Positions 20,122 through 61,491 of a stretch of 64,000 bases of DNA are shown here, piece after piece. Source of the stretch: Tritrichomonas foetus (lineage: Eukaryota; Parabasalia; Tritrichomonadida; Tritrichomonadidae); contig MLAK01001215.1 of NCBI GenBank assembly GCA_001839685.1, positions 6,676 to 70,675 of the forward strand. Reading direction: 5' to 3'. Position 1 is the stretch's first letter; each line of letters opens with the position of its first letter. The notes under the pieces are model-generated. The model was not told the DNA's origin, did no database searches, and worked only from the letters and a program-made list of their open reading frames with translations. The position numbers and the translations under genes were made by a program.

Positions 20122-21618
20122 TTATCCTTTGATGACACCGATTGGCAAAAGGCGAGCAACTTTCTTTGATGCTCCAACTGTTTGGCATGCCTCAACGACC
20201 AACTCAACATCCTTGTAAGCTTCTGGTGCCTCTTCAATTAAGGATGTCTTTGTGGCTGCCCTGAATTCAATCCCCTTTGTATTAAGATCACTCTTAATAG
20301 CTTCTTCATTGAGACTTCTTAATGCCTTTTGGCGTGAAAGCATTCTTCCAGCACCATGGCAAGTTGAGCCAAATGCCAAATCCATTGACTCCTTTGTTCC
20401 AGCAAGGATATATGAAGCAGTACCAAGTGAACCACCAATGAGAACTGGTTGACCGACTTCACGATATTTTTCTGGGATTTCTGATCTTCCTGGTCCAAAA
20501 GCACGTGTAGCACCCTTTCTATGAACAATAAATTCACGTTCAACTCCATCAACAACATGTTTTTCTACTTTTGCAATGTTGTGTGCAACATCATAAATCA
20601 AATTCATTTCAATATCATCACGTTGGAAAACATCACTGAAAGCTTTACGTACGAAGTGAGTGATGATTTGTCTATTGCACCAAGCGAAGTTTGCTGCAGC
20701 ACCCATTGAATGAAGATAATTTTGACCAAGTTCACTGTTGAAGGCTGGTGAGTTGAGTTGATTATCGAATAACTTTTCATTCTTATTTTTATTCATCTGT
20801 TTCATAATATCATCTGCAACTTGGTATCCTAATCCTCTTGATCCTGTATGAATCATAACAACAATTTGTCCTTTTTTAACCCCCATTACATCTGCAATCT
20901 TTTGATCGAAAATATCATCAACAACTTGGATTTCAACATAATGATTTCCTGCTCCAAGTGTTCCAAGTTGATCAAGACCGCGTTCTTTAGCACGTTCGGA
21001 AATGAGTGATTGATCTGCATAAGTCATTCGTCCATTTTCTTCACAGTTATTAATATCTTCTTCAGTAGCATAGCCATTCTTAAGAGCCCAATGAGCACCG
21101 TTTGTTAATATATCTGTAAGGTCATCCATTGTGATGAATTTCTTGCGCTTTCCGCCAACACCGACTGGAACATTTTTATATAATGCATTAACAAGTTCCT
21201 TCTTAACTGGTTCAACATCTTCAAGTGTTAAATTTGTTGTTACACAACGGACTCCACAATTAATATCATAGCCGACACCACCTGGTGAAATGATTGCTGC
21301 TGGATCAGATGTGTCAAAAGCTGCAACACCACCGATTGAAAATCCATAACCACTGTGCATGTCTGGCATAGCAAATGATCCTTTTGTGACTCCATCCAAA
21401 GATGCGACAAATGCTATTTGCAAAATTGATGGAAGTCCTTTATTTCTATTTTCCATCCATTCACTCAATTCCTGGAAACTTGCTTCTGCCATTTCTGGTG
21501 TTGCAAAAAATCTTCCTGGAACTTTCATATTTGGCACGAAACCAATTGGAATTTCATAAACGCATGGTTCAACCAATTTGATCATACTTGGGTCAATAAC
21601 CAATGATTTGCGATCCAT
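20122..21618 (-). CDS. RTCB: tRNA-splicing RNA ligase RtcB
   Basis: RtcB joins 2',3'-cyclic-phosphate and 5'-OH RNA ends, using GTP and Mn2+, in tRNA splicing and, in some eukaryotes, mRNA repair. The 498-residue protein has the full set of signatures: PGGVGYDINCGVR (Mn-binding Asp and Cys), GTLGAGNHYVEIQ, MIHTGSRGLGYQV, YDVAHNIAKVE, HRKGATRAFGPG, GGSLGTASYILAG, and STCHGAGRMLSR with the His expected to carry the GMP. It ends in the canonical LLPIGVIKG. Length and order agree with archaeal/animal-type RtcB, so an active enzyme is expected. ATG at 21618, TAA stop. An AAACGTTG element lies ~150 bp upstream. Confidence 0.97.
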   Translation of the reverse strand: MDRKSLVIDPSMIKLVEPCVYEIPIGFVPNMKVPGRFFATPEMAEASFQELSEWMENRNKGLPSILQIAFVASLDGVTKGSFAMPDMHSGYGFSIGGVAAFDTSDPAAIISPGGVGYDINCGVRCVTTNLTLEDVEPVKKELVNALYKNVPVGVGGKRKKFITMDDLTDILTNGAHWALKNGYATEEDINNCEENGRMTYADQSLISERAKERGLDQLGTLGAGNHYVEIQVVDDIFDQKIADVMGVKKGQIVVMIHTGSRGLGYQVADDIMKQMNKNKNEKLFDNQLNSPAFNSELGQNYLHSMGAAANFAWCNRQIITHFVRKAFSDVFQRDDIEMNLIYDVAHNIAKVEKHVVDGVEREFIVHRKGATRAFGPGRSEIPEKYREVGQPVLIGGSLGTASYILAGTKESMDLAFGSTCHGAGRMLSRQKALRSLNEEAIKSDLNTKGIEFRAATKTSLIEEAPEAYKDVELVVEACQTVGASKKVARLLPIGVIKG

Positions 21619-25539: not shown

Positions 25540-28500
25540 ATGATTAAAACAAAATTCGGAAATCTTGATCACATAATGACAGAATCAACACATCAATTCA
25601 TTATTAGTTCACTAATCATTAAAGGTAATGAATGTATCTCACACATAAAGCAATCATTTATTTTTAGATCGTCGCTGGCATACATTGGGCATCACATTCA
25701 CATTTTTCTGACAGGATTAACACCAATCACACAGACACAGATCACAGATTCTCAAATTCAAGCACTTCGACAATTACAAGAATTATTCAATCATTTCGAT
25801 TCAGTTGTTTCACATCTTTCAGAAAAAAAGTGGATTCAGCCAGCTTTAAACTGGCCTGCTTCTTATGTTCATATTTACATTGATGGTTTCAGAGATAACT
25901 TAACAAAAGTTGCGCCAGCTTTTGGATTGATGTCAAATGATTTATTCAATTATGACAAAGAGCAAGACATGATCAATAAACATGCTGATTTGAAAGCACT
26001 CAAAGCTTCACTTGAAAACTTACTTGATAAAATTGATATTTCTGATGCTGTTGGTGTTCAACAACAAGTTCAAACAAAATTATCAGAAATAAATAAAATT
26101 ATTCCACCAACAAAAGTTGATCATCGAAGTTCAAAAAGGAGGCCATCTGCCGAACGTTTACCTGTCATCACAATGAAGAACCGTGTTGAGCACTTACTAA
26201 GTCAGTTTAAAAATATCAACATTGAAGTTGAAAATATCTTATTACGAGAGCAGATTGGAGCAGGTGGATTTGGTACGGTTTATAAAGCAACTCGATTATC
26301 GACATCTGAAGTTTTAGCTGTGAAAGAACTTCGATCAGATCGATTAACAATGGCTAGTTGGGCATCTCTTTATGCTGAAGTTGAAACAATGGCATCAGTT
26401 AGACATCCATATGTTCTTGAACTTGTTGGTGCCCACATAACTGAGCCTTATAGAATAATTACCCGTTTTTGTCCAGGAAAGTCTCTTTTTGAGAGAATTC
26501 ACAGATCCAATTCCAAATTTCCTTCACTTTCACCCACAAGACTCACACTTATTGCTTACCAAGTTGCTGTTGGGATGGCACATTTGCATTCATTAAGAAT
26601 TGTTCATCGAGATTTGAAAACATTGAATATTTTGCTTGATGAAGAAGATAATGGATGTGTGGCAGATTTTGGACTATCAGGGATGATGAAAGACAATCAA
26701 GAACTGTGTGGAGGAGTTGGAACACCACATTATACAGCACCTGAAGTTCTTTCACATTCTAGATATGGACCAAAAGTGGATTCTTTCTCATTTGCTGTTG
26801 TTTTATGGGAAATGTTGGTTAGAAAAGTTCCCTATGGTGAAATGACTCACATGGCGATCTATGAACATGTTGTTACACGAAATTGGAGGCTTCCAATTCC
26901 ACATGATACTCCGGATGGTTTAAAGAAATTAATTACACATTGTTGGAGCAAAAATCCAAATGATAGACCTGAGTTTAAAGAAATTGTCCAACTATTTGAA
27001 AAGGGTGATATTTATTTTCCTGGTAGCGAGGAAATTAACTTTCAAGATCTGAAAATAGTGCATCAATGTCCTTTGCTTGATCTTGAATTTGCATTTTCAT
27101 GTCTGAAAGATCCGCATAATCCTCATTTTTCGTCAATTTGTTATTATATTTGTTCAAAAATTGACACGAATTTAAGAAATGAATTGAAAAAACAAAATTT
27201 GTTTGAAACCTTGGTTAAAGCTGAGGTTAATATTGATGCTATTCTTTTATTAGCAAGTGCTATTTTAGAACAAGATGAATTATCTGACTTTTTGGGAAAT
27301 GGTGGTTTGGAAATGTTTAAGAAATGTATTGATACTGAAAATGGTCAAGAAGTTTCTGCTGCTTTAAAATTCGGACTGAAAATTTCACTAGATGATTTGA
27401 ATAAATTGAGAGGATTTTTACCACAAATTGTGAAATATCTTGATGTTACTTCATCTTCAATGATTTCTCATGCTTTACAATTTATTACTCGTTTTCCAAA
27501 TGATGAATTAAGTAAATTTACGGAAAACATAAGTTATGCATTGATTAATACTGCTGAAGAAGTTGATGATCAGCAAACTTTTGATGCTATTGTTTCTTTA
27601 TTACCTTTATGTAAAGAAACTATAATACCCACAGCAATGCAACGGTTTTATAAACTTTTAAATGGCAAGTTTATTGTTCCACAAACTTTTGTTGAAACGT
27701 TAATTCAGGCAAGCACAAAAAGTTCACATCCAAACTTGATTTTATCAATATTAAAAGCAACTGCTAAATCAGATATCACTGAAATATTTCTTCAGTTTCT
27801 TCAAAAGTGTGAAAAAGAAGAAAAAGAAACATTCAATAGTTTATATAAAATCGATTCATTCTTTGAAACAATGCAAAATTTAATTGAAATTGGCTCAGTC
27901 CGATCACCTCTTTTTCTTATATTTTGTATTGCACCGATCGAAGATGCTGCTTTAAGAATTGCTAATCATCCAGTACTATCATCTCTCTTACAAATGAAAG
28001 GATTTCAAAATCAATGTCTTCATGTTTTAACTGTCTTATGTATGCACGAAAAATTCTGTTTGAAAACGACGGCAATTGATGGAATTATTCATTTGCTTGT
28101 TGCTTCTTTATCAAAAAATAATTTAGTTTCATCGGCTGTTCGTCTAATTGGTGCTTTTTCTTCGCATGCTTGTGGTTGCAATATTTTAAGTGACAATGGA
28201 GTGCTAGAATTATTCACACAACTATTTCTAACATCATCTGGTAATGATACAGCAACTTCCCATACTATTCTTCGGAATATTGCTCGCCAAAATTGTGAAA
28301 TCCCTCAAGGATCTCTGATAGTTTCTTGTTTGATGCAGGATATGATTTATGATATTAATCGAAGATGTGAAATACTTGATACTTTAATTGCACTTGTTGA
28401 AGTTATGCCGGGTAGTGTACAAGAACATGATCTTCAACGCGTTGTAATGCCACAAATAAAAGTATCTGATAAGCCACTTCTTATTCATTTAGCTTTATCA

Positions 28501-28791
28501 GTTTTCGCAGTATGTGAACCAACTGTGTTAAGAAACATTTACCCACAACTCCTTGCATCGATTTATGAGCTTCTTGACAATCCAAATAATATGTATCCCG
28601 AAATTATTATGCCATGTTTGAAAATAATTACACAAATTTCCACGCAAGTTGACATCAGTGAATTTATCAAAAAGATTGAATTGTTCACCTTTATTGATGA
28701 AATTGTCAAACTTCTACAGGAGGACTCAGAGAATGACTGTAAAATTATCATTGGATTCAAAAATGACCTTATTTCACAAAATCAATATTAA
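25540..28791 (+). CDS. TKL-type protein kinase with C-terminal helical repeats (1083 aa)
   Basis: The N-terminal ~220 residues are helical and of the type seen in parabasalid TKL kinases (ALRQLQELFNHFDSVVSHLS, KKWIQPALNWPASY). The kinase domain (~230-490) is complete: Gly loop GAGGFGTVYKA, VAIK-type VLAVKE lysine, HRDLKTLNILLD catalytic loop, DFG in VADFGLS, and GTPHYTAPEVL as activation segment. Substrate type is not predictable, but TKL enzymes are mostly Ser/Thr kinases. Residues ~520-1083 are ARM/HEAT-like helices, likely a scaffold. ATG and TAA are clear. It starts 153 bp from the divergent karyopherin gene. All catalytic residues are present, so it should be active. Confidence 0.9.
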   Translation: MIKTKFGNLDHIMTESTHQFIISSLIIKGNECISHIKQSFIFRSSLAYIGHHIHIFLTGLTPITQTQITDSQIQALRQLQELFNHFDSVVSHLSEKKWIQPALNWPASYVHIYIDGFRDNLTKVAPAFGLMSNDLFNYDKEQDMINKHADLKALKASLENLLDKIDISDAVGVQQQVQTKLSEINKIIPPTKVDHRSSKRRPSAERLPVITMKNRVEHLLSQFKNINIEVENILLREQIGAGGFGTVYKATRLSTSEVLAVKELRSDRLTMASWASLYAEVETMASVRHPYVLELVGAHITEPYRIITRFCPGKSLFERIHRSNSKFPSLSPTRLTLIAYQVAVGMAHLHSLRIVHRDLKTLNILLDEEDNGCVADFGLSGMMKDNQELCGGVGTPHYTAPEVLSHSRYGPKVDSFSFAVVLWEMLVRKVPYGEMTHMAIYEHVVTRNWRLPIPHDTPDGLKKLITHCWSKNPNDRPEFKEIVQLFEKGDIYFPGSEEINFQDLKIVHQCPLLDLEFAFSCLKDPHNPHFSSICYYICSKIDTNLRNELKKQNLFETLVKAEVNIDAILLLASAILEQDELSDFLGNGGLEMFKKCIDTENGQEVSAALKFGLKISLDDLNKLRGFLPQIVKYLDVTSSSMISHALQFITRFPNDELSKFTENISYALINTAEEVDDQQTFDAIVSLLPLCKETIIPTAMQRFYKLLNGKFIVPQTFVETLIQASTKSSHPNLILSILKATAKSDITEIFLQFLQKCEKEEKETFNSLYKIDSFFETMQNLIEIGSVRSPLFLIFCIAPIEDAALRIANHPVLSSLLQMKGFQNQCLHVLTVLCMHEKFCLKTTAIDGIIHLLVASLSKNNLVSSAVRLIGAFSSHACGCNILSDNGVLELFTQLFLTSSGNDTATSHTILRNIARQNCEIPQGSLIVSCLMQDMIYDINRRCEILDTLIALVEVMPGSVQEHDLQRVVMPQIKVSDKPLLIHLALSVFAVCEPTVLRNIYPQLLASIYELLDNPNNMYPEIIMPCLKIITQISTQVDISEFIKKIELFTFIDEIVKLLQEDSENDCKIIIGFKNDLISQNQY

Positions 28792-29119: not shown

Positions 29120-30931
29120 TCAAGCAGGTATTTCGCACATGATGTCTCTCAAATTTGCAAGATTGTTCGAAAGTCCAACAATGGCGTTGTTTGTGAAAGC
29201 TTCGTTTGTGTCTTGAATAAATCCTTGCTTCAAATTTTCAATATCATTATTTAGCTTCTCGACGATTTTTCCTTTCCTTTGAGCTGTTTCATTATGCTTT
29301 GAAAGGAAATCCTTGTTCAATTTTGCAACGTTTTCAGCGATTTCTTTGTTTTCGAAAAGTGTTGCTTCTGTCAAATCTTTATGCTGCTGTTCCATTTGCT
29401 TCAAAACGCGAATGTTGTCAGTTAGTTTTGAAATAATGATATCAAGTTCTTCTTTTGCTTGTGCTTCAGTTTCATTGAGTGATTTTTCGGTATTTTTTTG
29501 GAAATCAGAAAGAATTTTCTCGATTTGATTCATACTGATTTCTTTCTCTTGCGTGGTTTTTCCATAAAAATCATCTTCAATAAAATAATTAGCACTTTTT
29601 GATTCAGCTTCATCTTGTTCCAAAACCATTTTGTCCTTTGGATTTGCATAAACTCGCTTTTTATTATAGAAGTGGTCGAAGTTATGTGAATTCCCATTTT
29701 CAGTTTCATCGAGATCATCATCACCATCTATAATACGGCTTTTATTATATTTGTTATTTCCTTTTGTTGGGTTTCCTTGATAGTTATTTTCTTTGATATT
29801 TTTATTATTTTTGATATGTCTTATAGCAACTTTTGGTTTATTTTCTCTGATTTTTTTCAGAAAAGTATCTATTTCGCTTTTCGTGATGAATGGTACAGAA
29901 AAAGTGAACTCACTGGATTTTTTGTTGGATATTTTGTGGAAGGCAGTCATATTCTCTTTTGTGTGGAATTGTAGCATCTTGTCTGCAACTTTTCCATTGA
30001 ATACCAAAGATGTTCGAAAAACAACGACATCTGGAAGTTGAGCATTTGATCTTTTATTCGATTTCCCGGTGATCCAAACAACGATTGTGTCAGGATTTAT
30101 ATCAATCCAACCATTCGATTCGATTCTTTCGTTGTTGTATAAGAATGAGTTATATTGAATGTGAGTTATCGGCAATCTGAATTTTTTGTTTGCAGTCATA
30201 ACAAAATCATGTAAAGAACTTCGAAAGTTGGAAAGATCAATTTGTTTGAACGATTCCAGGAGGCCTCCAAAAATTTTAACTTTGTTGAGGCAGTCTCCTA
30301 ATATATTCGAAGATCTCCATAACCATTCGGCAATCAGCATCTGCGCAAGCGAGTCTTTACTTTCTTTTATTAGATTCAAGCACCTTGTGAAGTGTACTTC
30401 CTTCAAGTACTTGGAAATCATATTTCGATTTTCTGGGCATTGGGAAATCAATGTAATCATTAACTCAAAGATGGCCGATAAAACTGGTGATGCAAACTCA
30501 AATCCTGATGCCAAGTTTTCCGTGAAAGGATCGATGATTTCGTCCATTATACTTTTCTTAAGATGAATATTATTTGTGACAATGTAGCTAATAGTGTTAA
30601 TGAACTCAGTGACTTCGTTGATATTTGCATTGCTTGTTCTGAAAACCACATTAGATATCGTAGATCCGATTTCACATCCAATATCGGCTTTTAATGATGA
30701 TCGCAGCAACCTCAAGAGTGATGAAAGAGTCGATAAATGTTGAATATTTCCGCTAATTTCACTGAAAATGAGTTTAAGATTGAGAATTGATCGCCTGTCC
30801 AAAGTTTGTATATTCTTCGAAATGAGTACAGCCTGTTTTAGGTCTTTCCAGAATGATTGTTTGCTTGGATTGATTGGTGTTTTGAGTAACTCATGAACCT
30901 CGACGCAAGTACTGTTTGGGCCTCTTTTCAT
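29120..30931 (-). CDS. SYCP2-like protein: ARM-like, Spt16M-like and C-terminal coiled coil (603 aa)
   Basis: SYCP2 (with yeast Red1 and plant ASY3) is the core of the meiotic chromosome axis: an N-terminal ARM-like domain, an Spt16M-like PH fold, a long disordered linker that recruits HORMA proteins, and a C-terminal coiled coil that makes filaments. The same order is visible here. Residues ~20-240 are helical repeats (ILNLKLIFSEISGNIQHLS, LAQMLIAEWLW). Residues ~245-375 are beta-rich with NGWIDINPDTIVVWITG, matching the WIDFN...ISFYIAG segment of animal SYCP2. Residues ~380-465 are disordered and basic/acidic. Residues ~470-590 form a coiled coil (IEKILSDFQKNTEKSLNE and on). Length is shorter than animal SYCP2 (~1500 aa) but near Red1. 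Stop is TGA. Similarity is by eye, so the call is tentative. Confidence 0.5.
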   Translation of the reverse strand: MKRGPNSTCVEVHELLKTPINPSKQSFWKDLKQAVLISKNIQTLDRRSILNLKLIFSEISGNIQHLSTLSSLLRLLRSSLKADIGCEIGSTISNVVFRTSNANINEVTEFINTISYIVTNNIHLKKSIMDEIIDPFTENLASGFEFASPVLSAIFELMITLISQCPENRNMISKYLKEVHFTRCLNLIKESKDSLAQMLIAEWLWRSSNILGDCLNKVKIFGGLLESFKQIDLSNFRSSLHDFVMTANKKFRLPITHIQYNSFLYNNERIESNGWIDINPDTIVVWITGKSNKRSNAQLPDVVVFRTSLVFNGKVADKMLQFHTKENMTAFHKISNKKSSEFTFSVPFITKSEIDTFLKKIRENKPKVAIRHIKNNKNIKENNYQGNPTKGNNKYNKSRIIDGDDDLDETENGNSHNFDHFYNKKRVYANPKDKMVLEQDEAESKSANYFIEDDFYGKTTQEKEISMNQIEKILSDFQKNTEKSLNETEAQAKEELDIIISKLTDNIRVLKQMEQQHKDLTEATLFENKEIAENVAKLNKDFLSKHNETAQRKGKIVEKLNNDIENLKQGFIQDTNEAFTNNAIVGLSNNLANLRDIMCEIPA

Positions 30932-37814: not shown

Positions 37815-40800
37815 TTATTTCATCTGTGCTTCTTCTTTTCTGCCTTCAACGAAGTAAGTAATAACATCTCCATTTTTAATTTGAATTTGGCCTCTTTCAC
37901 GAATTTTGAAATCTCCTCCATAAATTAATTCATAAACACTTCTGGAAATATGTACAAGCATTGGCATGCCATTATGTTCCATTTGTTGTGCCATATTAAT
38001 GCATGGACCAATTATTTCAAATGTTGGTTTTTCTGTTCCAATAACACCTGCAACCAAAGGCCCACCAGTGTTTACACCAGCACGAATTCGGAGGGTTTGA
38101 TTCATTTCTGCATCTAAAACATTTACTGCATTTATGCATTCTAAACAAAACTCAACAACTTCTCTTGCATGCGTGTTTGGCTCATTAATTTCAGAAAAGA
38201 TACCACCTGCTGCCATGTAGCAATCACCAATACACTTAATTTTTGTCATTGTTGGCTTCATTGCCAATGATGCATCAAATAATTTATAGAGTTGGTTTAA
38301 TGTCATCATGACAACCGCTGCAGTATTTGATGCGCACCATGGAGTAAATTCAACAATATCCATAAATGTAATTGTTGCGCTTTCCACAGAGAAAGAAATG
38401 TTAGTTTCACCATCTTGAACACGTTTTACAAGATTGGCTGGAAGAATTGAAGCAAGAAGTGAATCACTTTTGGCTCTTTCTTCTACAATTAATGAATTAT
38501 AACAAACTGTTTGTGTTTCATCACAAACCATAATGACATAATGATTATTTACAACACCACAATTAATTGTCAAAAATTCTTTCGTTTCGTCATACATATA
38601 TTCGATGTTGAGAGTTAATTGACTATCAGTAAAAATTTTTGATACATCTTGGTTGAAATTCTTCCTTTGGAAAAATTCCCTAACATCACCTTCAATGGCT
38701 TGTGTATGGAAGATTCTTTCAAATGCAGAATTACATGTAACAACTTGATATTGTTGGTTTGCAATAATGATAGCATCTGGTAAATTTTGAACAACATTTT
38801 CAAAGAATATATCCGTTCTTTGTGTTGTATCTTTTACTCGATTTGAAAAATCGCCGGAAAGAACATCATTAATTTTTGGAATTTGGAGAACAACTTTTGA
38901 TTGAGTATGTAAAAGAAGCCTCAATGCAAATTTCATTTTTGATTCAGAAATCACAGTCTGAATAATAATAATTACGGTTAAAATTAAGCCAAGGAATAAT
39001 AAAATGATTACGGGGATTTGCGTTTTTGGAATGGCTGCTGCCATCATATCTTTCATTTGTGGAACAATTCCATCAAACATTGGATAAAACAATGTATCAT
39101 ACAAGTTACAAGCAAGAATTCACAGTTCAACAAAGACAAAATCATCTGTTCTAATTCGGCCACCAGGCATATCATGGACAACTGGATCAATAAATTTGTA
39201 AACAAATGGCTCGAATAATAAAATTTGTGAATCAACAGGGAAACAGGAATATGTATTATGTATATCTTCATAAATTTCAGAAGTGTTATCGCATGTTAGA
39301 ATTTCGGAAGCCTTTTGAATTTGTTCGCTATATCCTTCAAAAGGCGGTTCAGTAAGATCTTCTGATCCATAACGAGCTCTATGATAATATTTTAAGTAAG
39401 TTTCAAGTCTTCCTGAAACTCTTTCCAATGATGACAAGATTGGTCTTCCACCAATTCCTTTGTTAATTTCAACCATTCCATTATATCCGTTCATATTTGC
39501 AATAACTGCATTATTTAATGCCAAAAATATTCCAACCATATATGCAGTTGTTCCCATAACATCATCAAGATGTGGAGCATTTCTTGTGAGGGTTTCGGAA
39601 ATACTAGGGAAGGTCTCACAAAGAACAACGATAATAATTATAGCAAATACTAGCATAGCCATATAACATATTGAAAATATGATTATATCAGCAGATATAC
39701 TTGTATTAGAATCACTAGCAGATGCAAAAATTTTCAGCATATTTTCTTCTTGTTTGTTAAGTTCAGTATCAGCTTCTGTTGTGCGCGACGTATCATTTTC
39801 ATCTTTCTTAAGAACTCTCATTGCTTCAGACATTGAACTAACAACATTTTTTGGAAGTGCAGTCAAGCATTTATAGATTTCCATTTTATTTCTTTTTAGT
39901 TTTCTTAATTGAACAATTAATAAAACTATCCAAATTACCACAAAAACAATGGAAACTATAATTTCTACTAGCCTAATGATTGTGGTGAATGTATTCGATG
40001 TATCAGCAATATAATCAGTTAGGCAAATTAAAGCATCACTTATGTTCACAGCAAGACTATTGGCATTTAAATATGGATTGAGCAATTTTGGTGAATTAAA
40101 CATTTCAAATGACAGTTCTTCTTCAGTTAATGATGATATTTGAATAACATGATCAAGGAAGAATGACATAATACTTCCTGTTGTCTTATAACTGGTATTG
40201 ATACTTGTATAATAGTCATAATTGAGGGAAGTTTCGAAAACTACCTTATGGACTGGTGCCAGAATTGCATTATCTCGTTCAAATGATCGAAACGTTCCAA
40301 GTTTTTCCAAATTTGCCGAACATTCATGTAAAATGAATTTAAGTTGCTCAAATGTATCAGTTATTCCACCTAATGTTGTTGGAATATGAGTGAAATTAGG
40401 TTTTGAAAACATTGGCTTGTTATCGTAAGATGGAAATGGCAAGTTTTCATTAATCCAATGATGTGCCCAAAGTGGAAGTGCGAAATTAAATGATCTAAGA
40501 ATCGATAAATATGACATAAACTCCAAGGGTGTTGTCATTGAACTAATATAAAATGGAATATAAACAAGGATTGCAACGGCTGGAAAAATCATTAAGACAA
40601 TTAATAAGAAAAGTGAAATTATTCGAATATTTCTAATTGCGGGAATTTTTAATTCTTCAATCCTTGAACGAATTAATGAGCCATGTTCAGTCAATGCTTG
40701 TGTTGTTTCTTCATCCATTTCTACATCACCTAATGTTGAAAATGATTCTGATTCTGATACTATTCCTGTCTGTCCTAATGCTTTGGATGCAGTAACAGGT

Positions 40801-42524
40801 AATGCTGGATAGGCATGAAGACCCATTTGATTAGTAACATCAGTATTGACTGCAATTCCACGTTGAAGTACTCTGATTTTTTCTTGCCAAGCAACATATT
40901 GTTGTATATCGCCCATAATTTCATTAAGAAAGCGTGCATATCCTCTTGCAACAAATCTATTGTTAGGATAAAGTGATATTAAGTGAGAAAATTCATTATG
41001 TGTCTTATTCACGGAATTATAAGCATTGTTAATTGAATATTCCAAATCATTGATATTTCCCTGGATAACAAGATCCCAAATATTTCTAAGCCTTCGCTTT
41101 GTTGATGTATTTTCTTTTTGAACATGAGCAATTTTTCTTTTAAGATCGTTCGATAAAGAATTTTCTCTTTGCATTTGAATTTGATTTGCTTGGATCACTG
41201 TATTTTTCGCAAGTGATCCAGCTAATTTTTTGGCAACGATATTTCGAACAATATATGATAACAAATTAGTTTCTTCTGGATAAATAGCGGTAAATTTAGC
41301 AAAAAGTGGCCAAATATAAACATTCTCAGGAAAATGATCAGCTGCATAGTTGAATAGTTGCCACTCAATGCAAACAGGATGTGCGTTTGACATTCCTGTG
41401 CACAAAAGCTGAACCATTTTTGTTGGACTGGTAATGGCTGATGCATTTTCTATATTATCAATGAATTCATCTAATGTTACTAATTGATTCAATTCTATTT
41501 TCTTCAGTGTAAAGTGTGCAATTATATACGAAACAATGATTAATGCAATAAATACAAAAATTTGTGGTTGTGAAGCATGTTTTCCAAGAATTAAATAAAT
41601 TGCAACCATGAACAAATGGAGACCTCCAGAAAGTGAGGCAGAAAAGATTAATCTATTATGATAGTTTTTGATGAAAGAACCAGGCATAAAAATTGCCAGC
41701 AATAAAGATAGGTTCAAAAGTGCAGCAATGATGGTAAGAACTATTTTTGGAATTTGAGATAAATGTGCAGCAATACCAGTGATTAATGTAATAAAGTATG
41801 AGACTGTTGTTAAATATACTCCTGCATTATTTAATACAGAAATAAAAGACATCGGGCGAAAAGTGATTGAAATTGAAGTCACATTTTTGTAAAACCAAAA
41901 AGAAACCGCAAAAAGAGCAATAACAAGTAAAATCACAAATATTTCAAGTCCAATGTGATATTGTGTTTTTCTATTCATAATTAAATAACTTATTTCTTCT
42001 CCACACATTTCTAAAGCCATTGGCTGAATCAAAAACATAATTGAGGAAATGAATAGTGATAGAAGGGGAGGAACTGCTTTTGGCAACTTGGCTGTTTTCT
42101 TATAAACAAAGGCTGCTGAAATAATACCAATATAAAATACTAGCATTATAGCAACATATATAATTTCCACAATTAGTCCATTATCGTGTCTGTATTTTGG
42201 CGGACAAAAATGAAAAATGATTGAAATTATTCCAACTGCGGTTTTCGCGACTGAATTATTTTCCCAGAAATTATCGTATCCTGCTGCCAAGGCTGGCCCA
42301 ATTAATTGAATGAACCGCCAAACAGTAATAACTTCATGAAGCGCGTAATAGAATGGCACTGATGTGTCCATGTAAGACATTAGCTGAAATAATCGATTTC
42401 TGGCGACTTTTATAGTGCTTTGTTCCACCAGGCCGTTGTATTTCGTTGACGAGGAGAAATCCGAGAAAAACGAATTAGTTGAAGATTGAATTGTTGACTG
42501 AGATAATTTAGTTTCTTGGATCAT
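37815..42524 (-). CDS. Receptor-type PAS/nucleotidyl cyclase, frame interrupted by one TGA
   Basis: This is a multi-span cyclase of the large trichomonad family, expected to make cAMP or cGMP at the membrane. From ATG 42524: about eight membrane spans (residues ~85-350), a cytosolic helical region (~360-630), then further spans (~640-670, ~865-890, ~950-980, ~995-1015) around an extracellular loop. After RTDDFVFVEL the frame meets TGA (39120-39122), then continues in the same frame as ILACNLYDTLFYPMFDG, a last span (PVIILLFLGLILTVIIIIQ), a PAS domain (VVQNLPDAIIIANQQYQVVT) and the class III catalytic domain. The catalytic part has both metal Asp sites (TFMDIVEFTPW; CIGDCYMAAGG) and GVNTGGPLVAGVIG. 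In NMAQQME the Asn is kept but the usual Arg is Gln. Stop TAA at 37815. The TGA would remove the whole catalytic part. Confidence 0.8.
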
Positions 42525-44741: not shown

Positions 44742-47700
44742 TCATTCAACTCGTGGTGATGTGAAATTTGTTGGTGGGTTAGTTGTACAGTATTGGCAAA
44801 GCCATTCAGCCAGTTGAGGAGATTTTTCATTAATACCATATTGAGTATTAAAGAAATGAGAAATTGTTGTTGCGTTTGACATTTCAACAGCATCCATTTT
44901 GACTTCAGTTGGCCATCTATTTCTTTGTTCTACTAAAAATGATATAATTCTGTTAGATTTATTGAAAATTGATTCTGCTTTATGAAGAGTCAATTTCCAT
45001 TTAATTTCTGCATTTTTCATTGCTAATTGTGCTTGATTCTTTAATAATGATACATTTTGTGTTACTTCTGGTGAAGCTGCTTTGGATTTTGCCTGTCTGC
45101 TTCGTTTTCTTTTTGCATCGGGAGTTTCCTGTGGTTCACACTGTGGTGGTGCTTCACATTGAGCGTCTGAACTCTCCATTCTTGTTGCTTCTTCTAATTC
45201 TAAACCAACTTCAGACATTTCATTACTAACACTTCTTAAATCATTTTGTTGAGCTGCAATCATAAGTGGTGTGAGTTTAATGGAATCATTTGGTATGGAA
45301 GTTGATCCTCCTTTACTCGTGGGTGGTTTCTTTTTGGCTGCTTCATCAAGGTCGACAATAACACCAATAAAAAAGTATAAAGAACCTTTCAAATTAGCTG
45401 AGCGTTGACCTCTTCTTCCAGAAGCAGTCGTACTAGTACGTGAAGATCGTGAAAATGATGTTCTAGAAATTGCTGTTGAAGATCGATTGGCAATAGTAAC
45501 ATTTTCACTTGTCATTCCATCGCCTAATTTGAAGATTTTTGAATCAACTTGATACCATTGGCCAACAACTTGACCAGCATCGAGTGTTAATTGTTCAGAG
45601 GCTTGTTGAAGTGATTTAAATGATGTGCACTGTTCTTCAAAGCATTTAAAGTATAAAAGAGTTCTCATTTCATATATTTCGGTATCAAAGAATGGAAGAT
45701 CAAGGCTACAAACATGAGAATAATATGCTGCAGCAATTCCACGAAGTTTTTGGTCTTTATGATCATTAAGAAGCAAAAATGGACATGAACCAGATGGTGG
45801 CGCATCAGGGCTTTGAGCAATAAGGGATTGGATAAATCGTCGAGATGATCGAACAGCAGAAGCTACAGATAATATAGCCAATGATTGTTCAAGTCTCTTT
45901 CCATTTTCATTTGAAGAAACTCCTGCAAGTACTGCAAAATCAAGAATACTTTGTTGACTTTCGGGGTGAACAACACAATCAGGTGCTTGTGCAAACATTG
46001 TATGAAGCAGGAGAGTTAATTTTTCAATAAAATCAGGAGAAATATTTACTCCACTTGAAAGAGGATTAATATCATGATTCCAATATTGAATTAAGGTTGG
46101 GTTTTTGGCTAAGAATGATTGCATTTGAATTCGAGAACATGTTGCATTTAAGAGAAATGCTAATCCATGTGCAATGTATGGACACTTATTTGTCAGAAGA
46201 TTCTGTGCATCAGCCAAAAGTTCAATTGGATTTGCAAGTCCGTTAAAGCAAGAATTGACTTCTGCTTGTAAGTGTTTAATACGAACAAGTAAATGAGTGT
46301 CTCTTATGAAATATGAACGTCCTTCATTCATTCCTAATTGTTCAGTGAAAAATGAATAAGTCGACTTATATAATTGAGTGATTAACTCAACAGGTTTGAT
46401 AATATTTTTGTCTTTTTGATTAAGTTTCAATTGAATACTTTCATATAATTGTGGATTGAAGCAGAAAAGACTTACAAGTTGGGCTACAGATAATACATAT
46501 TCACGATGAAATGCCGTGATCGGTGGATGAAGAGCGATTTGAGTGAGGAGTTGAGTTGCACCTTCGTAATCTGCTTTATGAATCAAAAGAAGGCATTTCA
46601 TGTAAGGGGATGCAACTTTTTGAGCATCTTGATAATCATGTAAATTATATGATGCATTAGCAATAATTTGAGTTGCAGTTGAAACAAGTCCACTTGCTAA
46701 GAGCATTGGTCTATCAATATATGGAATATTCATAGTTGGAGGTGTTGGATTAGATTTTATTATTGTTTGTGCAACTCGTATTGCATCTTCCCAACGCCAC
46801 TGTCCCATGTAAATCATTGCCTTTTCAAGTTGCAATTCTAGTTTAATTAAGGCTTGTTCTGGTTTTAATTCTTTTGAAAGAACATCAGATAAGAGCATAT
46901 CTGCATTTCTTAATGATCCATCAAAAGAATCAACAGTTGGTGATAATTGTGCATTTTGAGATGTTTCGAAATCTTTTTTGCCATGATGCTGTCTCCCCCT
47001 ATGCTTTCCTCTAGCATTTCCATCTTTTTGTTTACTATTTGTGGAGTCAGATGCAGTACTTCCGGATGGATCGGACACTAATGCAATATTCTGTAAAATT
47101 CGTGATACACAAATTACATAATGACACATAATTGATGAACCATAATTTTGCATAATTTGTGTTAGATGAGCTGGTGTTGCAATTGTACGAGCTGCTTCTA
47201 AATTTGTTGGTGAATTAGGAGGTTCGGATACTTCAAATATAATTTTCTTTGCACTTGCTGGATATAATGAAGATTCTTTGGTTATTCTTGGTTCACCATA
47301 ATTTGTAATAATATCATTGATAATCTTTATTGCTGGCTGAAGTATTCCAAATTGGGTGCATGCCATAATAGTAAATAAACGAGCACGAGCTAAACCTCTT
47401 TTCTCTCTTACTATAAATCGGTAGAAATGTCTTGCAAAAGAAAGTGGTTTAAACATTTCAAAGTACATTTCATATGATAATAAAGATGAAATAAGATTTG
47501 ATATGGCTATTGACATATATAATGCAGGGGCTGGTTCAAGTAGCGGCATATGTGGATCATATTCGCTGAATATATCAACACCTTGAATAATTTCCGATGG
47601 TTCAAAATCTGCAAAATCAATTTGCTTCTGAGGGTGAGAAGGAGTTGCAGAAAATATAGCAGATATTGAAAATGCAGCCAGTCTGGATAATTGCATCGCG

Positions 47701-50700
47701 TGAACTCTATCGGAATAAAGAGAAATAAGCGATGAAATCACAAATATTGACATACAACCAGACCATGAGTGTTTTTGATAAAAGCTGGCTTCAGTTTCCC
47801 CTTTTAATATTTGGTCAACCTTTTCATGTGCTCTCACAAGGCGGAAATGACATTCTAAAGCTTCACAAAGCTTTGTTGTTGCTAAAGCAGTTTCATTTCT
47901 GTCAAACAATATAAATGCCAATTTAGAAAGTAAACAAACACTCATAGAAAGTTTTTGTTTATGTTGAAGGGCAACTGCAATTTCACTAATTCCTTTTATT
48001 AATGCTTCATTACTATTGTTAGCAGGTTCATTCGGATATAAATGAGATCTAATTGCTCTTTGATAAATAGTATCCGCTTCATAAAATTGATTTTCGGCAG
48101 GATCACGTTGTTGAAGGCTTGATTGAACACTATGAAGTTCTGGAGGAATATCTTCTGGATTTGATAAAATCCATAAATGCTGTCCAGAAAGTTGACAGAA
48201 TTTACAAGCGACTTGAAGATTAATCCTGATATTATTAATTTGATTATCATTCATCATGAAGATCAAAACATCACGTAGCAGATCTTGGGAATATGTTTCT
48301 TGGAGAGGGAGATTGTAAATGAGAACTTGACATATTGAAGAAGCAAGTGGGGACAAAATATTAAATGATGAAGTTCCTGGAGAAATTGTAGATATGTATA
48401 CGTGAAAGAATGTTGCTGCTGATTTGATAATAATATCATCATTTGACCTAGCCCCAATTACTATCGCCCTACGCAATGCAGAAATAACTGCTGCAGATTG
48501 ATTGTTTTGTGCTGGATCCTCTTCACCAGGAGTTGCACGTTTTGGATTAGAATGCTTTGAAGCTCTTCCTTTGTTTTGTTGAATTGTTTTATCTTTTCTT
48601 CCCGTTCTTGATGTTTCTTGTGTTGTAGCATTAATCAACTGTTGATCTTGCTCAATAAGACACATTGCTAAAAGGAGATTAAGAGCAGCTCTATATTTAT
48701 TAACTGCATCAAATTTAGCAATATTTGCTCTTCTGTGCTGATATTTATTCCAAACAGAGATAATTTTAGTTGCTGCTATTGTTTCTGTTGCATCTTCAGT
48801 TGATTGTTTTATCATTTCATTCTTTTTGCCTCTTATTGGGAGTCGTCTCTTTGGTGTTGGTTTATTATTTGCAGCTCTAGAGTTTGCCTTCTTAGTCGGC
48901 TGCTTTTCATCATTTTCATGAAGCGTTGATTTAATATAATCAAGCGCTGCATTACACCACTCGACTCCTTTTGAGCATAAACCAGCATTGTGAGCTGCTG
49001 ATACTAGAAAAACTGCTGCTGCAGGAAATTGTGGATCTAATTTAAATTTATTGAAAAGTTCGTCATAACTTTTTTCTGGTGATGTTCTAAACATTTCTGC
49101 TGCACAGAGTGGTAAAGTAGTATCATTAACATTGGCCTCAAGTAATTGATTTTTGGATGCAAACATCATAAATGCAGATCTCGAGAGATTTGGAGGAAGT
49201 TCAACAACCATCTTCATAATATATGATGATAGTTGTTTTTCTTGATACAATTGAACCAATATATTTTCAAAAGCGTAAGCACATTGAGCTGAAAGATTTT
49301 GGTGAAGCTCAGTTTTGGCTGTATTTTTGTTGTGTTTCAATGTATCGATGATATATAATAATGGATGAAATACCCATTGCGTATGGTATATATTAACCAG
49401 TAATGGTTGAAGGATAGCAAACATTTCATGACATATTTGCAACGTTAAATCATGGTTATGCAAAATTTGTGACAGAACTACTGCGATTCTTTGGAAAGAA
49501 GTCGCATAAATTGGCTTGGCAGCAAATAATCTAGCTGCCATCATTAATGCAGAAGAAAAGGCTCTAAGTAATGGTGCAGGCTCAGAAAATGTCGTTGTTT
49601 TAAGCATGAATTTATTAAATGGATTTGTTTGTTGATAAAATGCATGATCTTCATTAACTTTCACTATATCAACAAATCTATTCAGTAAAAAGGATAATGC
49701 AACATCAAATGTTCCCATATCTTTTAATCGGTATGATGCTGATGCTAAATAGCAATAAGCCAATTCAGTTGAGAGATCATGACAAGTTGTAACAGAAAAT
49801 GGTTCAGTAATATTATCAATTAATTCATTGAGAGAATCAAAAGCACCAAATCCAAATGAATACAAAGTGTTTGGCTTCAGTTTTGTAACAATGAATGGAT
49901 CAATTACATCTTGCTTTATACCAGTTCCACTTAATGCTACATTTGATAATGTTAATCCACTTGAACCAACTGTTTCTTTACCATATATTGCGACTTTCTT
50001 TGCTCCTGGTGTTGAATATGGATAGAGAAAACCAATTTCAGTCCTATTAACGTATAAAACTGGAGAATTTAAAGGTAATTTCTTCGCTTCAAGTTCTGTA
50101 AGATTTTGTCTTGCCTTTTCAAGTAAAGATGCTGCTCTTGATGGACGGAAAAAGGCCATTTGAGTATATAAAAGCGCTTTTGCTGCATTATTATTTTTGA
50201 AGTGATCCATGAGTTCCTGCTCAGTAGCTGTTGAATGAGATGGAGGTTTAAATTGTCTATTTAACAAATTATCAAAATGCTCCTTTTGTTTGATAGAAAA
50301 CTTTCCATATAATTTCATGGCCTTTATACGTTCAGCTTTAGTATTTTCTATATCTTTTGCATATTGAATTTTAGCGGCTTCTGTATCGACTTTGAGACCA
50401 TGTTTTAGTTTTGATTTTATCCATATAGTCAGTAGATCAGTATGAAGACATTCAAGCCATTTTTCAAAAAGTAAATATCCCTGGTCAAGTGGTTTATTTG
50501 GTATTTTTGTTGAAGACGGAATAACACGTGTGAATTTCCTAATTGTAAATATATCACGATATTCTTCCATTACTTTCAATGCAGATTGTGCAGAAATTGC
50601 AGCTTCTTCATTCATGTTCTGCTCATCAAGATACCAGCAATAGTGCAATGCAACCATTGCTGTTTGCATTGGGCATGGTGCTGGTGAAAGAAACATAACA

Positions 50701-51782
50701 TGAAGAACACCTTTCAAAACAGACGGAGTATCAATATTATTAGCGCAGAATCTTTTCCATATTTTTAAAGCTATTTCATTAAAAAATTGGAAGTCAGTTG
50801 ATATTGTTTCTTGTGGTAATTTTTCCATAATATTTGATGTTTCCAACCAATCCTCTGTAGAAATAGCAGTTGCCAATTGAACAATTAAATCATCTGGAAG
50901 TGCAGCAGCAAGAGCTTCATGTCCTTCGAGTGCATTTCCAGCTTTCAAGAAAGAAAAAATTAATCTATGTAATAAAGAAGGAGCTAATTGGCATTCTGGA
51001 TTAGTCCATGCTTGTGCAGCTTGTCCATATTTGTTTAGATAATCGTTTTTGGAAAGAGGCGAATTAAAAGCATTAGCAATAAGATTAATTGTATGTGGTG
51101 GAGGTGGTTGAATGACTTGAGGAGTTGGTTCTTCTTTAACAGGTCTTGCTGGTTTCCTTTTTTGCTTATTTGCAGAGCCGACTCGTTCAAAAACAATTTC
51201 TTCATTAACATTAAAATGAACTGCCATTAATTCTATCGTTGTTGCAGCTGTCTGAAAAATATCTGAGAGTTTGCATTTCGTTCCATCGCATAGTTTTATA
51301 GTTTCGGCCAGCCCATTGACATTGCATTCTTCCAGTTGTTTCAATTGATTAATATCATTTTTAAATGTATGTACAAATTGATCTGCATCTTTATCCCTTG
51401 GGTCTTCAGTGTTTGCAAATGCTGAACATACAATTGTAAATACCTGAAGCCGAAACGGAATAAATCGAGATGTGCAAAATATTAAAATCGAGGAAAGCGT
51501 ATTATTTAACAAAAGCAAAAACTCTAAAACATGATCTGAATATCCCGCAAAAATAATTCTTTCACATATTGGAAGTATTGAAATCACAATATTATAAATA
51601 ACCCAGTAATTTGATGGATTTGACGCAGTTTCGTTGATTAAATCTTCGATATTATTTAATTGTAATTTTATGCGTTCAAACGAGTCGCTGAAAACGAGAT
51701 TTGGATCATATTGAAAGATTGAATTAATGGTCGACATTATGTCTGATAAGCTCTTAAGCTCAGCCTCCGGGGTTCGACTCAT
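44742..51782 (-). CDS. CFAP54: CFAP54, central-apparatus C1d protein (2346 aa)
   Basis: CFAP54 is a large scaffold of the C1d projection of the axonemal central pair and is needed for normal beating. The protein is mainly helical-repeat. The diagnostic part is the segment around residues ~575-690: PVLYVNRTEIGFLYPYST (beta strands), ALSGTGIKQDV, FIVTKLKPNTLYSFGFGAFD and ELIDNITEPFSVTT, followed by STELAYCYLASASYRL. This corresponds to the fibronectin-like GTG...GL.PNE.YVFAVAAYD region of CFAP54. The C-terminus keeps WYQVDS and a strand YFFIGVIVDLD, as in the family. Basic/Ser-rich insertions (about 990-1040 and 1640-1680) look disordered. ATG 51782; stop is TGA, and the extension after it is clearly non-coding. 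AAACGTAC lies ~12 bp upstream of the start. Confidence 0.8.
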   Translation of the reverse strand: MSRTPEAELKSLSDIMSTINSIFQYDPNLVFSDSFERIKLQLNNIEDLINETASNPSNYWVIYNIVISILPICERIIFAGYSDHVLEFLLLLNNTLSSILIFCTSRFIPFRLQVFTIVCSAFANTEDPRDKDADQFVHTFKNDINQLKQLEECNVNGLAETIKLCDGTKCKLSDIFQTAATTIELMAVHFNVNEEIVFERVGSANKQKRKPARPVKEEPTPQVIQPPPPHTINLIANAFNSPLSKNDYLNKYGQAAQAWTNPECQLAPSLLHRLIFSFLKAGNALEGHEALAAALPDDLIVQLATAISTEDWLETSNIMEKLPQETISTDFQFFNEIALKIWKRFCANNIDTPSVLKGVLHVMFLSPAPCPMQTAMVALHYCWYLDEQNMNEEAAISAQSALKVMEEYRDIFTIRKFTRVIPSSTKIPNKPLDQGYLLFEKWLECLHTDLLTIWIKSKLKHGLKVDTEAAKIQYAKDIENTKAERIKAMKLYGKFSIKQKEHFDNLLNRQFKPPSHSTATEQELMDHFKNNNAAKALLYTQMAFFRPSRAASLLEKARQNLTELEAKKLPLNSPVLYVNRTEIGFLYPYSTPGAKKVAIYGKETVGSSGLTLSNVALSGTGIKQDVIDPFIVTKLKPNTLYSFGFGAFDSLNELIDNITEPFSVTTCHDLSTELAYCYLASASYRLKDMGTFDVALSFLLNRFVDIVKVNEDHAFYQQTNPFNKFMLKTTTFSEPAPLLRAFSSALMMAARLFAAKPIYATSFQRIAVVLSQILHNHDLTLQICHEMFAILQPLLVNIYHTQWVFHPLLYIIDTLKHNKNTAKTELHQNLSAQCAYAFENILVQLYQEKQLSSYIMKMVVELPPNLSRSAFMMFASKNQLLEANVNDTTLPLCAAEMFRTSPEKSYDELFNKFKLDPQFPAAAVFLVSAAHNAGLCSKGVEWCNAALDYIKSTLHENDEKQPTKKANSRAANNKPTPKRRLPIRGKKNEMIKQSTEDATETIAATKIISVWNKYQHRRANIAKFDAVNKYRAALNLLLAMCLIEQDQQLINATTQETSRTGRKDKTIQQNKGRASKHSNPKRATPGEEDPAQNNQSAAVISALRRAIVIGARSNDDIIIKSAATFFHVYISTISPGTSSFNILSPLASSICQVLIYNLPLQETYSQDLLRDVLIFMMNDNQINNIRINLQVACKFCQLSGQHLWILSNPEDIPPELHSVQSSLQQRDPAENQFYEADTIYQRAIRSHLYPNEPANNSNEALIKGISEIAVALQHKQKLSMSVCLLSKLAFILFDRNETALATTKLCEALECHFRLVRAHEKVDQILKGETEASFYQKHSWSGCMSIFVISSLISLYSDRVHAMQLSRLAAFSISAIFSATPSHPQKQIDFADFEPSEIIQGVDIFSEYDPHMPLLEPAPALYMSIAISNLISSLLSYEMYFEMFKPLSFARHFYRFIVREKRGLARARLFTIMACTQFGILQPAIKIINDIITNYGEPRITKESSLYPASAKKIIFEVSEPPNSPTNLEAARTIATPAHLTQIMQNYGSSIMCHYVICVSRILQNIALVSDPSGSTASDSTNSKQKDGNARGKHRGRQHHGKKDFETSQNAQLSPTVDSFDGSLRNADMLLSDVLSKELKPEQALIKLELQLEKAMIYMGQWRWEDAIRVAQTIIKSNPTPPTMNIPYIDRPMLLASGLVSTATQIIANASYNLHDYQDAQKVASPYMKCLLLIHKADYEGATQLLTQIALHPPITAFHREYVLSVAQLVSLFCFNPQLYESIQLKLNQKDKNIIKPVELITQLYKSTYSFFTEQLGMNEGRSYFIRDTHLLVRIKHLQAEVNSCFNGLANPIELLADAQNLLTNKCPYIAHGLAFLLNATCSRIQMQSFLAKNPTLIQYWNHDINPLSSGVNISPDFIEKLTLLLHTMFAQAPDCVVHPESQQSILDFAVLAGVSSNENGKRLEQSLAILSVASAVRSSRRFIQSLIAQSPDAPPSGSCPFLLLNDHKDQKLRGIAAAYYSHVCSLDLPFFDTEIYEMRTLLYFKCFEEQCTSFKSLQQASEQLTLDAGQVVGQWYQVDSKIFKLGDGMTSENVTIANRSSTAISRTSFSRSSRTSTTASGRRGQRSANLKGSLYFFIGVIVDLDEAAKKKPPTSKGGSTSIPNDSIKLTPLMIAAQQNDLRSVSNEMSEVGLELEEATRMESSDAQCEAPPQCEPQETPDAKRKRSRQAKSKAASPEVTQNVSLLKNQAQLAMKNAEIKWKLTLHKAESIFNKSNRIISFLVEQRNRWPTEVKMDAVEMSNATTISHFFNTQYGINEKSPQLAEWLCQYCTTNPPTNFTSPRVE

Positions 51783-60440: not shown

Positions 60441-60774
60441 TTAAAATTAACGATATCAAAGGTCAATTATGAACTTTTTCAGAAGGTTGTTTATTTTTAT
60501 GATACATTGCTATGAGAAATACCATTTCATTAATTATTTTGATTATTTCGTTACTATGATATTTTTAAAAATCGCTTATTAGAATAATTATCATATAAAA
60601 AGCGCAAATCTTCGGAAATTAAAAAAATTATAATGCTATATAAGTAAATAAAGATAAAATTAATAAGTAATAATGAAAGATAACAAATCTTAAATATATT
60701 GTTTTATTTGCTTTCGTTTTTTTCGAGATAAAATTTTTCTTTACTCAGAGTTGACAAAAGTCGTTTGGCAACAA
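60441..60774. promoter_or_regulatory. Divergent intergenic region
   Basis: It serves the methyltransferase gene (minus; TAACGATA at 60448-60455, 8 bp from the ATG) and the ADA1 gene (plus; TTACTCAGAGTTG just before the start). No other gene. Confidence 0.5.
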
Positions 60775-61491
60775 ATGCACCCCAACTATGCTTCGGAAGG
60801 TGTTCAAGTTTCATCAGATCCCGCAGCTGAATTGAGGGCACTTAAGCCAGTCGGAAATATATATACAAGCAGGAAAGACGTTCGCTCAATTCGACAACAA
60901 TTACAGGAACTTGTTCCAGAGAAGGAATACTGGACGACATTCGCATCATTCTTACATGGAATGTGCTCAAAGAAGAATTACGATAAAGCCATCAACGAAT
61001 TTCTCACCACCGACCAAGCGCGGGCATTACATAATGAGCTTCTCCGCGCAATTATTTTCAATGCTCACTTTTCTCGAATTCCTCCGCCCGACGTTGTTCC
61101 CAAACGGATGCCAATTCTGCCAAAGAGAGATGATATAATTATCGCCGAAAAAGATCCAAAAATTATCAACATTAAAACCTATACAGCCTCAGATCTCAGA
61201 CGATTGCCTTCCTCCAGAGAACTAAATCTACGAATTAAGGACTTGTTATCCAATTCTAAGCTCAGCGGAATTATCGCCGATCCAGAGGCAGTCAATCGGC
61301 TGCAGTTCGCCTTACGAGGATACATCACAGCCATACTCAAAAAGTCGTATGATTTAATTTCTCCCCCAAATTCGTATTCTGAGCGAAAAACCGCTACACA
61401 CCAGGACATTTTTTATGTATTGAAAACAGACAAGATTTTATCATCTACGGTTTCATTGAGTGTTTTTACAAAGTATTCCACAATATGTTAA
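60775..61491 (+). CDS. TADA1: ADA1/TADA1-like SAGA subunit
   Basis: ADA1 is a core SAGA subunit whose C-terminal histone fold pairs with TAF12. The 238-residue protein starts with a SAGA-Tad1 domain (~30-110): REYW-type KEYWTTFASFLHGMCSKKNYD and ALHNELLRAIIFNAHF (the family's LHN...ai..N). The C-terminal histone fold is DLRRLPSSRELNLRIKDLLS, then a helix LQFALRGYITAILKK (compare LPDA..LR.RM and LQ.HLK.LL). The open frame begins at a TTG (60751); the first ATG, 60775, is used. TAA stop. A TAF12-like partner is encoded at 16417-16785. Confidence 0.75.
   Translation: MHPNYASEGVQVSSDPAAELRALKPVGNIYTSRKDVRSIRQQLQELVPEKEYWTTFASFLHGMCSKKNYDKAINEFLTTDQARALHNELLRAIIFNAHFSRIPPPDVVPKRMPILPKRDDIIIAEKDPKIINIKTYTASDLRRLPSSRELNLRIKDLLSNSKLSGIIADPEAVNRLQFALRGYITAILKKSYDLISPPNSYSERKTATHQDIFYVLKTDKILSSTVSLSVFTKYSTIC

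Follow-up and report, generated by a model that had tools for sequence, protein, structure and literature searches.

The meiotic chromosome axis of animals, fungi and plants is built by its core proteins, which also recruit proteins of the Hop1 type (PMC6349405). According to the available part of Tromer et al. (2021, PMC8131943), the best criterion for the SYCP2-type family is the end of an ARM domain plus a PH domain, with a C-terminal coiled coil, and the same text reports three SYCP2-type paralogues (I–III) in Trichomonas vaginalis and divergent orthologues in Giardia. The ARM-PH-coiled coil order is also reported for ecRED1 of the brown alga Ectocarpus, and by published description (PMC8131943) the kinetoplastid proteins KKT17 and KKT18 share family and topology, although their role is in the mitotic kinetochore. 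In the main text of the 2008 inventory of T. vaginalis meiotic genes, neither "Red1" nor "SYCP2" occurs (PMC2488364), and a 2014 survey, in the portion available, gives mouse SYCP2 a score of only 51 in a group including Parabasalia (PMC4132317). The gene described here lies at 29120..30931 on the minus strand of a 64,000-nucleotide stretch of Tritrichomonas foetus DNA (contig MLAK01001215.1, positions 6,676 to 70,675), which as a whole is called the window. It probably encodes a SYCP2-type (Red1/SYCP2/ASY3 family) axis core protein, for which a Hop1-recruiting role in a meiotic or parasexual stage is proposed.

A first-pass annotation, made from the sequence, recognised this protein correctly. 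It also held that no axis-core protein had been named in trichomonads, and this claim of novelty fails: the family is already published for parabasalids, with the three T. vaginalis paralogues of Tromer et al. mentioned above. Its description of the organism as usually asexual has to be softened, because 27 of the 29 meiotic genes surveyed in T. vaginalis are retained (PMC2488364) and single-cell data of Tritrichomonas musculus show one cell cluster in which the expression of meiotic genes is raised (PMC10944700), as far as the accessible text of these two sources goes. Among the matches listed from the open-licence literature, there is no experiment on a SYCP2-type protein in a trichomonad. 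With relatives already reported from another trichomonad, the window gene hints well at a hidden sexual cycle, though not as the first of its kind.

Fold, conservation and copies of the probable SYCP2-type protein

The frame of 603 amino acids starts with ATG at 30931 and stops at 29120–29122 on the minus strand, and it contains no internal stop. The first protein search, over the best 7994 candidates by shared words, found four relatives besides the protein itself (query coverage 98–100%, local identity 43–44%); the closest named one among the matches listed is a T. musculus protein with 44% identity, whose locus tag, M9Y10_038235, was not found in any paper. A search with alignment A1 (five rows), within the same number of candidates, recovered the same five proteins, window protein included, and a third search, by region, with residues 15–345 of the relative P0002 added four further relatives of 541–581 amino acids (P0006–P0009). 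None of the three retrieved a T. vaginalis sequence. Two larger alignments, A3 with ten rows and A4 with nine, were also used. Conserved columns are spread over the helical, beta and C-terminal parts, while the linker is mostly poorly kept. Since conserved positions run across these three parts, the frame looks like a working protein under selection and not like a chance frame.

Two AlphaFold2 models, both of the window protein, bear out the domain order that had been proposed from the sequence, namely ARM-like helices, a beta domain, a disordered linker and a C-terminal helix: helices occupy residues 12–250, strands 256–345, a further helix runs from 351 to 362 or 363, and one long C-terminal helix follows the linker. 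The ARM-like domain (residues 12–250; 30182..30898, minus strand) consists of 13 helices with a predicted local confidence (pLDDT) of 81–95 per ten-residue block and was matched to mouse SYCP2 (5iwz). The PH-type beta domain with its closing helix (residues 256–362; 29846..30166, minus strand) has nine strands and then the helix, and the alignment with 5iwz reaches residue 365. The ARM-like domain is directly followed by the PH-type domain, arranged as in 5iwz, and the two are covered by one continuous structural match; a structure comparison, which the first-pass annotation had itself named as the check on its reading, thus came out in favour of a SYCP2-type architecture. No match was found in a library of virus structures at E ≤ 0.001. 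Mouse SYCP2 further resembles the window protein in its disordered linker and long C-terminal helix; however, its length is 1500 amino acids (given in the available part of PMC4132317), against 603 with a linker of about 100 residues here, and the identity is 14–15%.

The first-pass annotation had compared a W-I-D-I-N..V-W-I-T-G segment with mouse SYCP2. This segment is present at residues 275–289 on two neighbouring strands (273–278 and 282–288), the strand pair proper being residues 275–288 (30068..30109, minus strand), and it is conserved: W275, I276, D277 and N279 are identical in all five rows of A1, and of these I276 and D277 also throughout the ten rows of A3. Its sequence likeness to mouse SYCP2, on the other hand, is within chance, so that the likeness of the protein to SYCP2 rests on the predicted fold, and the proposed motif match would not stand without it.

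In the same genome assembly (63.7 million bases, 1064 contigs) the window protein finds two paralogues. One, C315, has 531 amino acids and is matched over residues 25–367 (E 1.4e-37) and 454–596 (E 3.3e-5); the other, C86, is an 896-residue frame from TTG, matched over residues 137–291 (E 8.2e-8). Reverse searches agree, and C315 and C86 find each other weakly (E 0.005 and 0.03). Analyses of C86 used the last 872 residues of its frame (G000:C86:130016-132631, minus strand, within locus L006). When A3 was compared with C86 by hhalign, 195 columns were aligned (97.2%, E 3.6e-11), covering the ARM end and most of the PH part; by eye, C86 has a long charged linker and a helical C-terminus. The SYCP2-type copies found in this genome are therefore three, as in T. 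vaginalis, which belongs to the same protist group and whose paralogues I–III have the ARM-PH-coiled coil topology; this comparison is one of number and of published description (PMC8131943, in its available part). The window protein adds structural support to the published parabasalid assignment of the family, which formerly rested on stepwise sequence profiles.

Several results weigh against the SYCP2-type assignment. The structural match is a distant one, because Foldseek gives a TM-score of 0.57 against 5iwz, taken by target length, and a root-mean-square deviation of 6.7. Direct comparison of profiles with 5iwz mostly failed. A Pfam scan gave no SYCP2 match in the window protein or in the seven of its ten relatives and paralogues that were scanned (both paralogues, P0002 and P0006–P0009; P0003–P0005 were left out), and the best matches were below threshold and scattered (Nod1, 1.9e-4, in C315; DUF885, 0.011, in the window protein). 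With hhalign, A3 and 5iwz were aligned over 16 columns in the wrong register, and the global alignment scored 1.7, whereas the five highest of 60 shuffles reached 7.1 to 13.6. For the HMMER tests 1000 shuffles of 5iwz were made, and each count gives how many of the reported shuffles equalled or exceeded the score of the real sequence: 889 of 904 for residues 10–362, 109 of 893 for 130–350, 228 of 856 for 225–350 and 200 of 802 for 250–350. After C86 was added to the profile, the counts were 49 of 884 for residues 130–350 and 88 of 892 for 225–350, and the C86 stretch by itself, cut to its first 400 residues, gave 98 of 687. The sole strong result among the eight tests is that of the profile with C86 over residues 10–350 (1 of 921). 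A search of PF18584 (SYCP2_SLD), an SYCP2 model contained in Pfam, against the organism's own genome gave no match and is uninformative, the control being silent as well.

In searches of PDB sequences, all five matches of the window protein were to apolipoprotein A-I, with E of at least 1.8 and over the linker and C-terminal helix; this protein was set aside, being a known false friend of the SYCP2-type family according to the available part of PMC8131943. C86 had no match there, and the profile A2 had 12 (best E 0.0024), of which ten fell in the linker and C-terminal part; SYCP2 was not among the 12.

C-terminal helix, linker motif and possible meiotic partners

The long C-terminal helix, residues 461–599 (29135..29551, minus strand), is taken as an oligomerising coil on the basis of the model, the C315 match and a hydrophobic period of about 3.6. 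It spans residues 467–598 in the first model and 461–599 in the second. The helix is amphipathic; taken over nine sequences, its period is 3.62, a peak that 18 of 1000 shuffles attain. The local period is 3.52–3.66, between the heptad value of 3.5 and the hendecad value of 3.67, with little signal at exactly 3.5, and a period near 3.6 instead of the 3.5 of a plain heptad coil counts against the SYCP2-type reading. Because such a period fits a mixed heptad/hendecad coil or a plain amphipathic helix, the predicted helix is likely, short of proof, to form a coiled coil.

The linker between the PH-type domain and this helix (residues 363–460; 29552..29845, minus strand) is disordered and mostly poorly conserved, with pLDDT mostly below 50 at about 365–464. 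Within it, the motif K-K-R-V-Y-A-N (residues 424–430; 29642..29662, minus strand) is a putative Hop1 closure motif, that is, a candidate for binding by a HORMA domain. R426 and A429 do not vary at all and 78% of the nine A4 rows have Y428, whereas most columns of residues 360–423 stay below 50%. All ten A3 sequences have the pattern R[IV][YFL]A in their linkers, against a background of one occurrence in the 12334 residues of the 12 other window proteins and one in the ARM part of P0007. A second conserved stretch, residues 453–463 (29543–29575, minus strand), with D453 and then G-K-T-T-Q-E-K, marks the linker end running into the C-terminal helix.

It has been reported that the closure motifs of SYCP2 (395–414) and Red1 directly follow the ordered N-terminal domain, and that those of plants have basic residues on both sides of a hydrophobic centre (West et al. 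2019, PMC6349405, available part). In Ectocarpus, as far as the accessible text of PMC12678776 reports, conserved arginines matter for binding, the shared core is (K/R)C(S/G)LA(K/R), and one of six predicted ecRED1 motifs bound. This core has the same outline as K-R-I-Y-A-K of P0002, an analogy made post hoc. Closure motifs recruit Hop1-type proteins in yeast Red1, ecRED1 and plant ASY3, and in the published descriptions consulted some of them are shown to bind HORMA domains, whereas the linker motif of the window protein is a proposal and a candidate. A conserved candidate was found where the first-pass annotation had advised looking for a closure motif (residues 380–465), but its position differs from that in SYCP2 and Red1: it lies about 60 residues past the PH domain and not directly after it. 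The reading is further weakened by the absence of R[IV][YFL]A from C86 and from the Hop1-type protein described below, and by having been made after the motif was seen.

Instead, the linker motif might add a strand to the PH domain, or might be a nuclear import or modification site, and the chances of this are somewhat short of even. A strand is given at residues 426–428 in the first model and over two residues, 427–428, in the second, both in stretches of low pLDDT, and the basic K-K-R would suit an import or modification site; however, what stays invariant is the R and the A, the latter preceded by Y, F or L, rather than a run of lysines. A looser pattern, [KR]xx[ILVMFY][AS][KR], occurs in the tail of the Hop1-type protein as K-H-L-I-S-K. 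C86 has R-P-F-I-A-E-K close to where its matched region ends, at residue 367 of the stretch analysed, and there R-P-F-I-A-E lacks the last basic residue of the pattern. As this pattern also turns up in the background (seven in the 12334 residues of the 12 other window proteins, three in the Hop1-type protein) and was picked with the motif already in view, these occurrences are only a lead.

The Hop1-type protein itself, of 331 amino acids, is encoded in the same genome (G000:C200, locus L007, 358-1353, minus strand); its HORMA domain is matched with E 6.3e-62, and its best solved relative is HORMAD1 (E 1.9e-30). Because one clear HORMAD1-like protein is present, it is plausible from these sequence matches that the window protein is its partner. 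A second HORMA match, C918 (E 0.0147), is below the cut-off and overlaps a frame that is ankyrin-like by eye, and was dropped. The genome also has a Spo11/topoisomerase VI-type N domain over the family cut-off (1.7e-19), with four archaeal controls matched too, as expected for topoisomerase VI; two Hop2-type TBPIP matches over the cut-off, where three prokaryote controls were matched and none over it; and three kleisin N-domain matches over the family cut-off, which may be mitotic or meiotic. The SYCP3/Cor1 family gave five matches in this genome; a SYCP3 claim is withheld because all of them are below the cut-off and one prokaryote control was matched as well.

Proposed axis role and its rivals

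Computation shows the fold, the domain order, the conservation, the paralogues and the presence of Hop1-, Spo11-, Hop2- and kleisin-type genes. Filament formation, Hop1 recruitment through the linker motif and control of breaks and repair we infer by analogy, because they are known for Red1, SYCP2:SYCP3 and ASY3:ASY4. In the proposed mechanism, the C-terminal helices would assemble into tetramers and filaments along the cohesin-based axis, alone or with C315. The ARM-PH head would dock chromatin or axis partners, and threading of R-[IV]-[YFL]-A, the linker motif, into the HORMA domain of Hop1 would bring Hop1 to the axis, so that in a meiotic or parasexual stage it would control Spo11 breaks and interhomologue repair.

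The main rival is a SYCP2-type protein that works in mitosis, for example at centromeres, with the compact copies (window protein and C315) mitotic and the long-linker C86 meiotic. It is the main rival because the family members KKT17 and KKT18 sit at mitotic kinetochores; in addition, SYCP2L is found at centromeres, and repeated duplication may accompany new functions (PMC8131943, available part), to which the three copies in this genome can be added. It nevertheless appears unlikely, as the genome retains Hop1-, Spo11- and Hop2-type genes and the linker motif would suit a HORMA partner. Far less probable is a helical-solenoid-plus-PH protein or ARM scaffold outside the family that merely resembles SYCP2.

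Returning to the SYCP2-type axis protein with a Hop1-recruiting role, a more far-reaching version is doubtful, if slightly less so than the mitotic one. Trichomonads would have a full Hop1 and axis-core system, K-R-[IV]-Y-A would be a Hop1 closure motif of brown-algal outline, and the three copies would have split roles, the compact pair (window protein and C315) building filaments by pairing of their C-terminal helices instead of SYCP2:SYCP3, and the long-linker C86 being nearer the animal form. A conserved, intact axis-core member beside Hop1-, Spo11- and Hop2-type genes offers a concrete gene to tag and a pair to test, so that the question of trichomonad meiosis gains a testable marker, a protein pair and a candidate closure motif.

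Other genes of the window

The SYCP2-type gene has a tail-to-tail neighbour at 25540-28791 (plus strand), whose end is 328 bases away from the SYCP2-type stop; the 1083-residue product of this neighbour has a protein kinase domain (E 5.7e-56) and, in its later part, a sub-threshold RICTOR_M match. An RtcB-type tRNA-splicing ligase is encoded at 20122-21618 on the minus strand (Pfam E 5e-163). Also on the minus strand, a frame with a TTG start and PAS and adenylate/guanylate cyclase domains (37815-39104) begins shortly past the stop codon of the 1134-residue frame at 39120-42524; both may belong to a single broken gene. The 2346-residue frame at 44742-51782 (minus strand) has an N-terminal match to CFAP54, a flagella-associated family (E 2e-8), and the one at 60751-61491 (plus strand) matches SAGA-Tad1 over residues 40–106 (E 1.4e-16).
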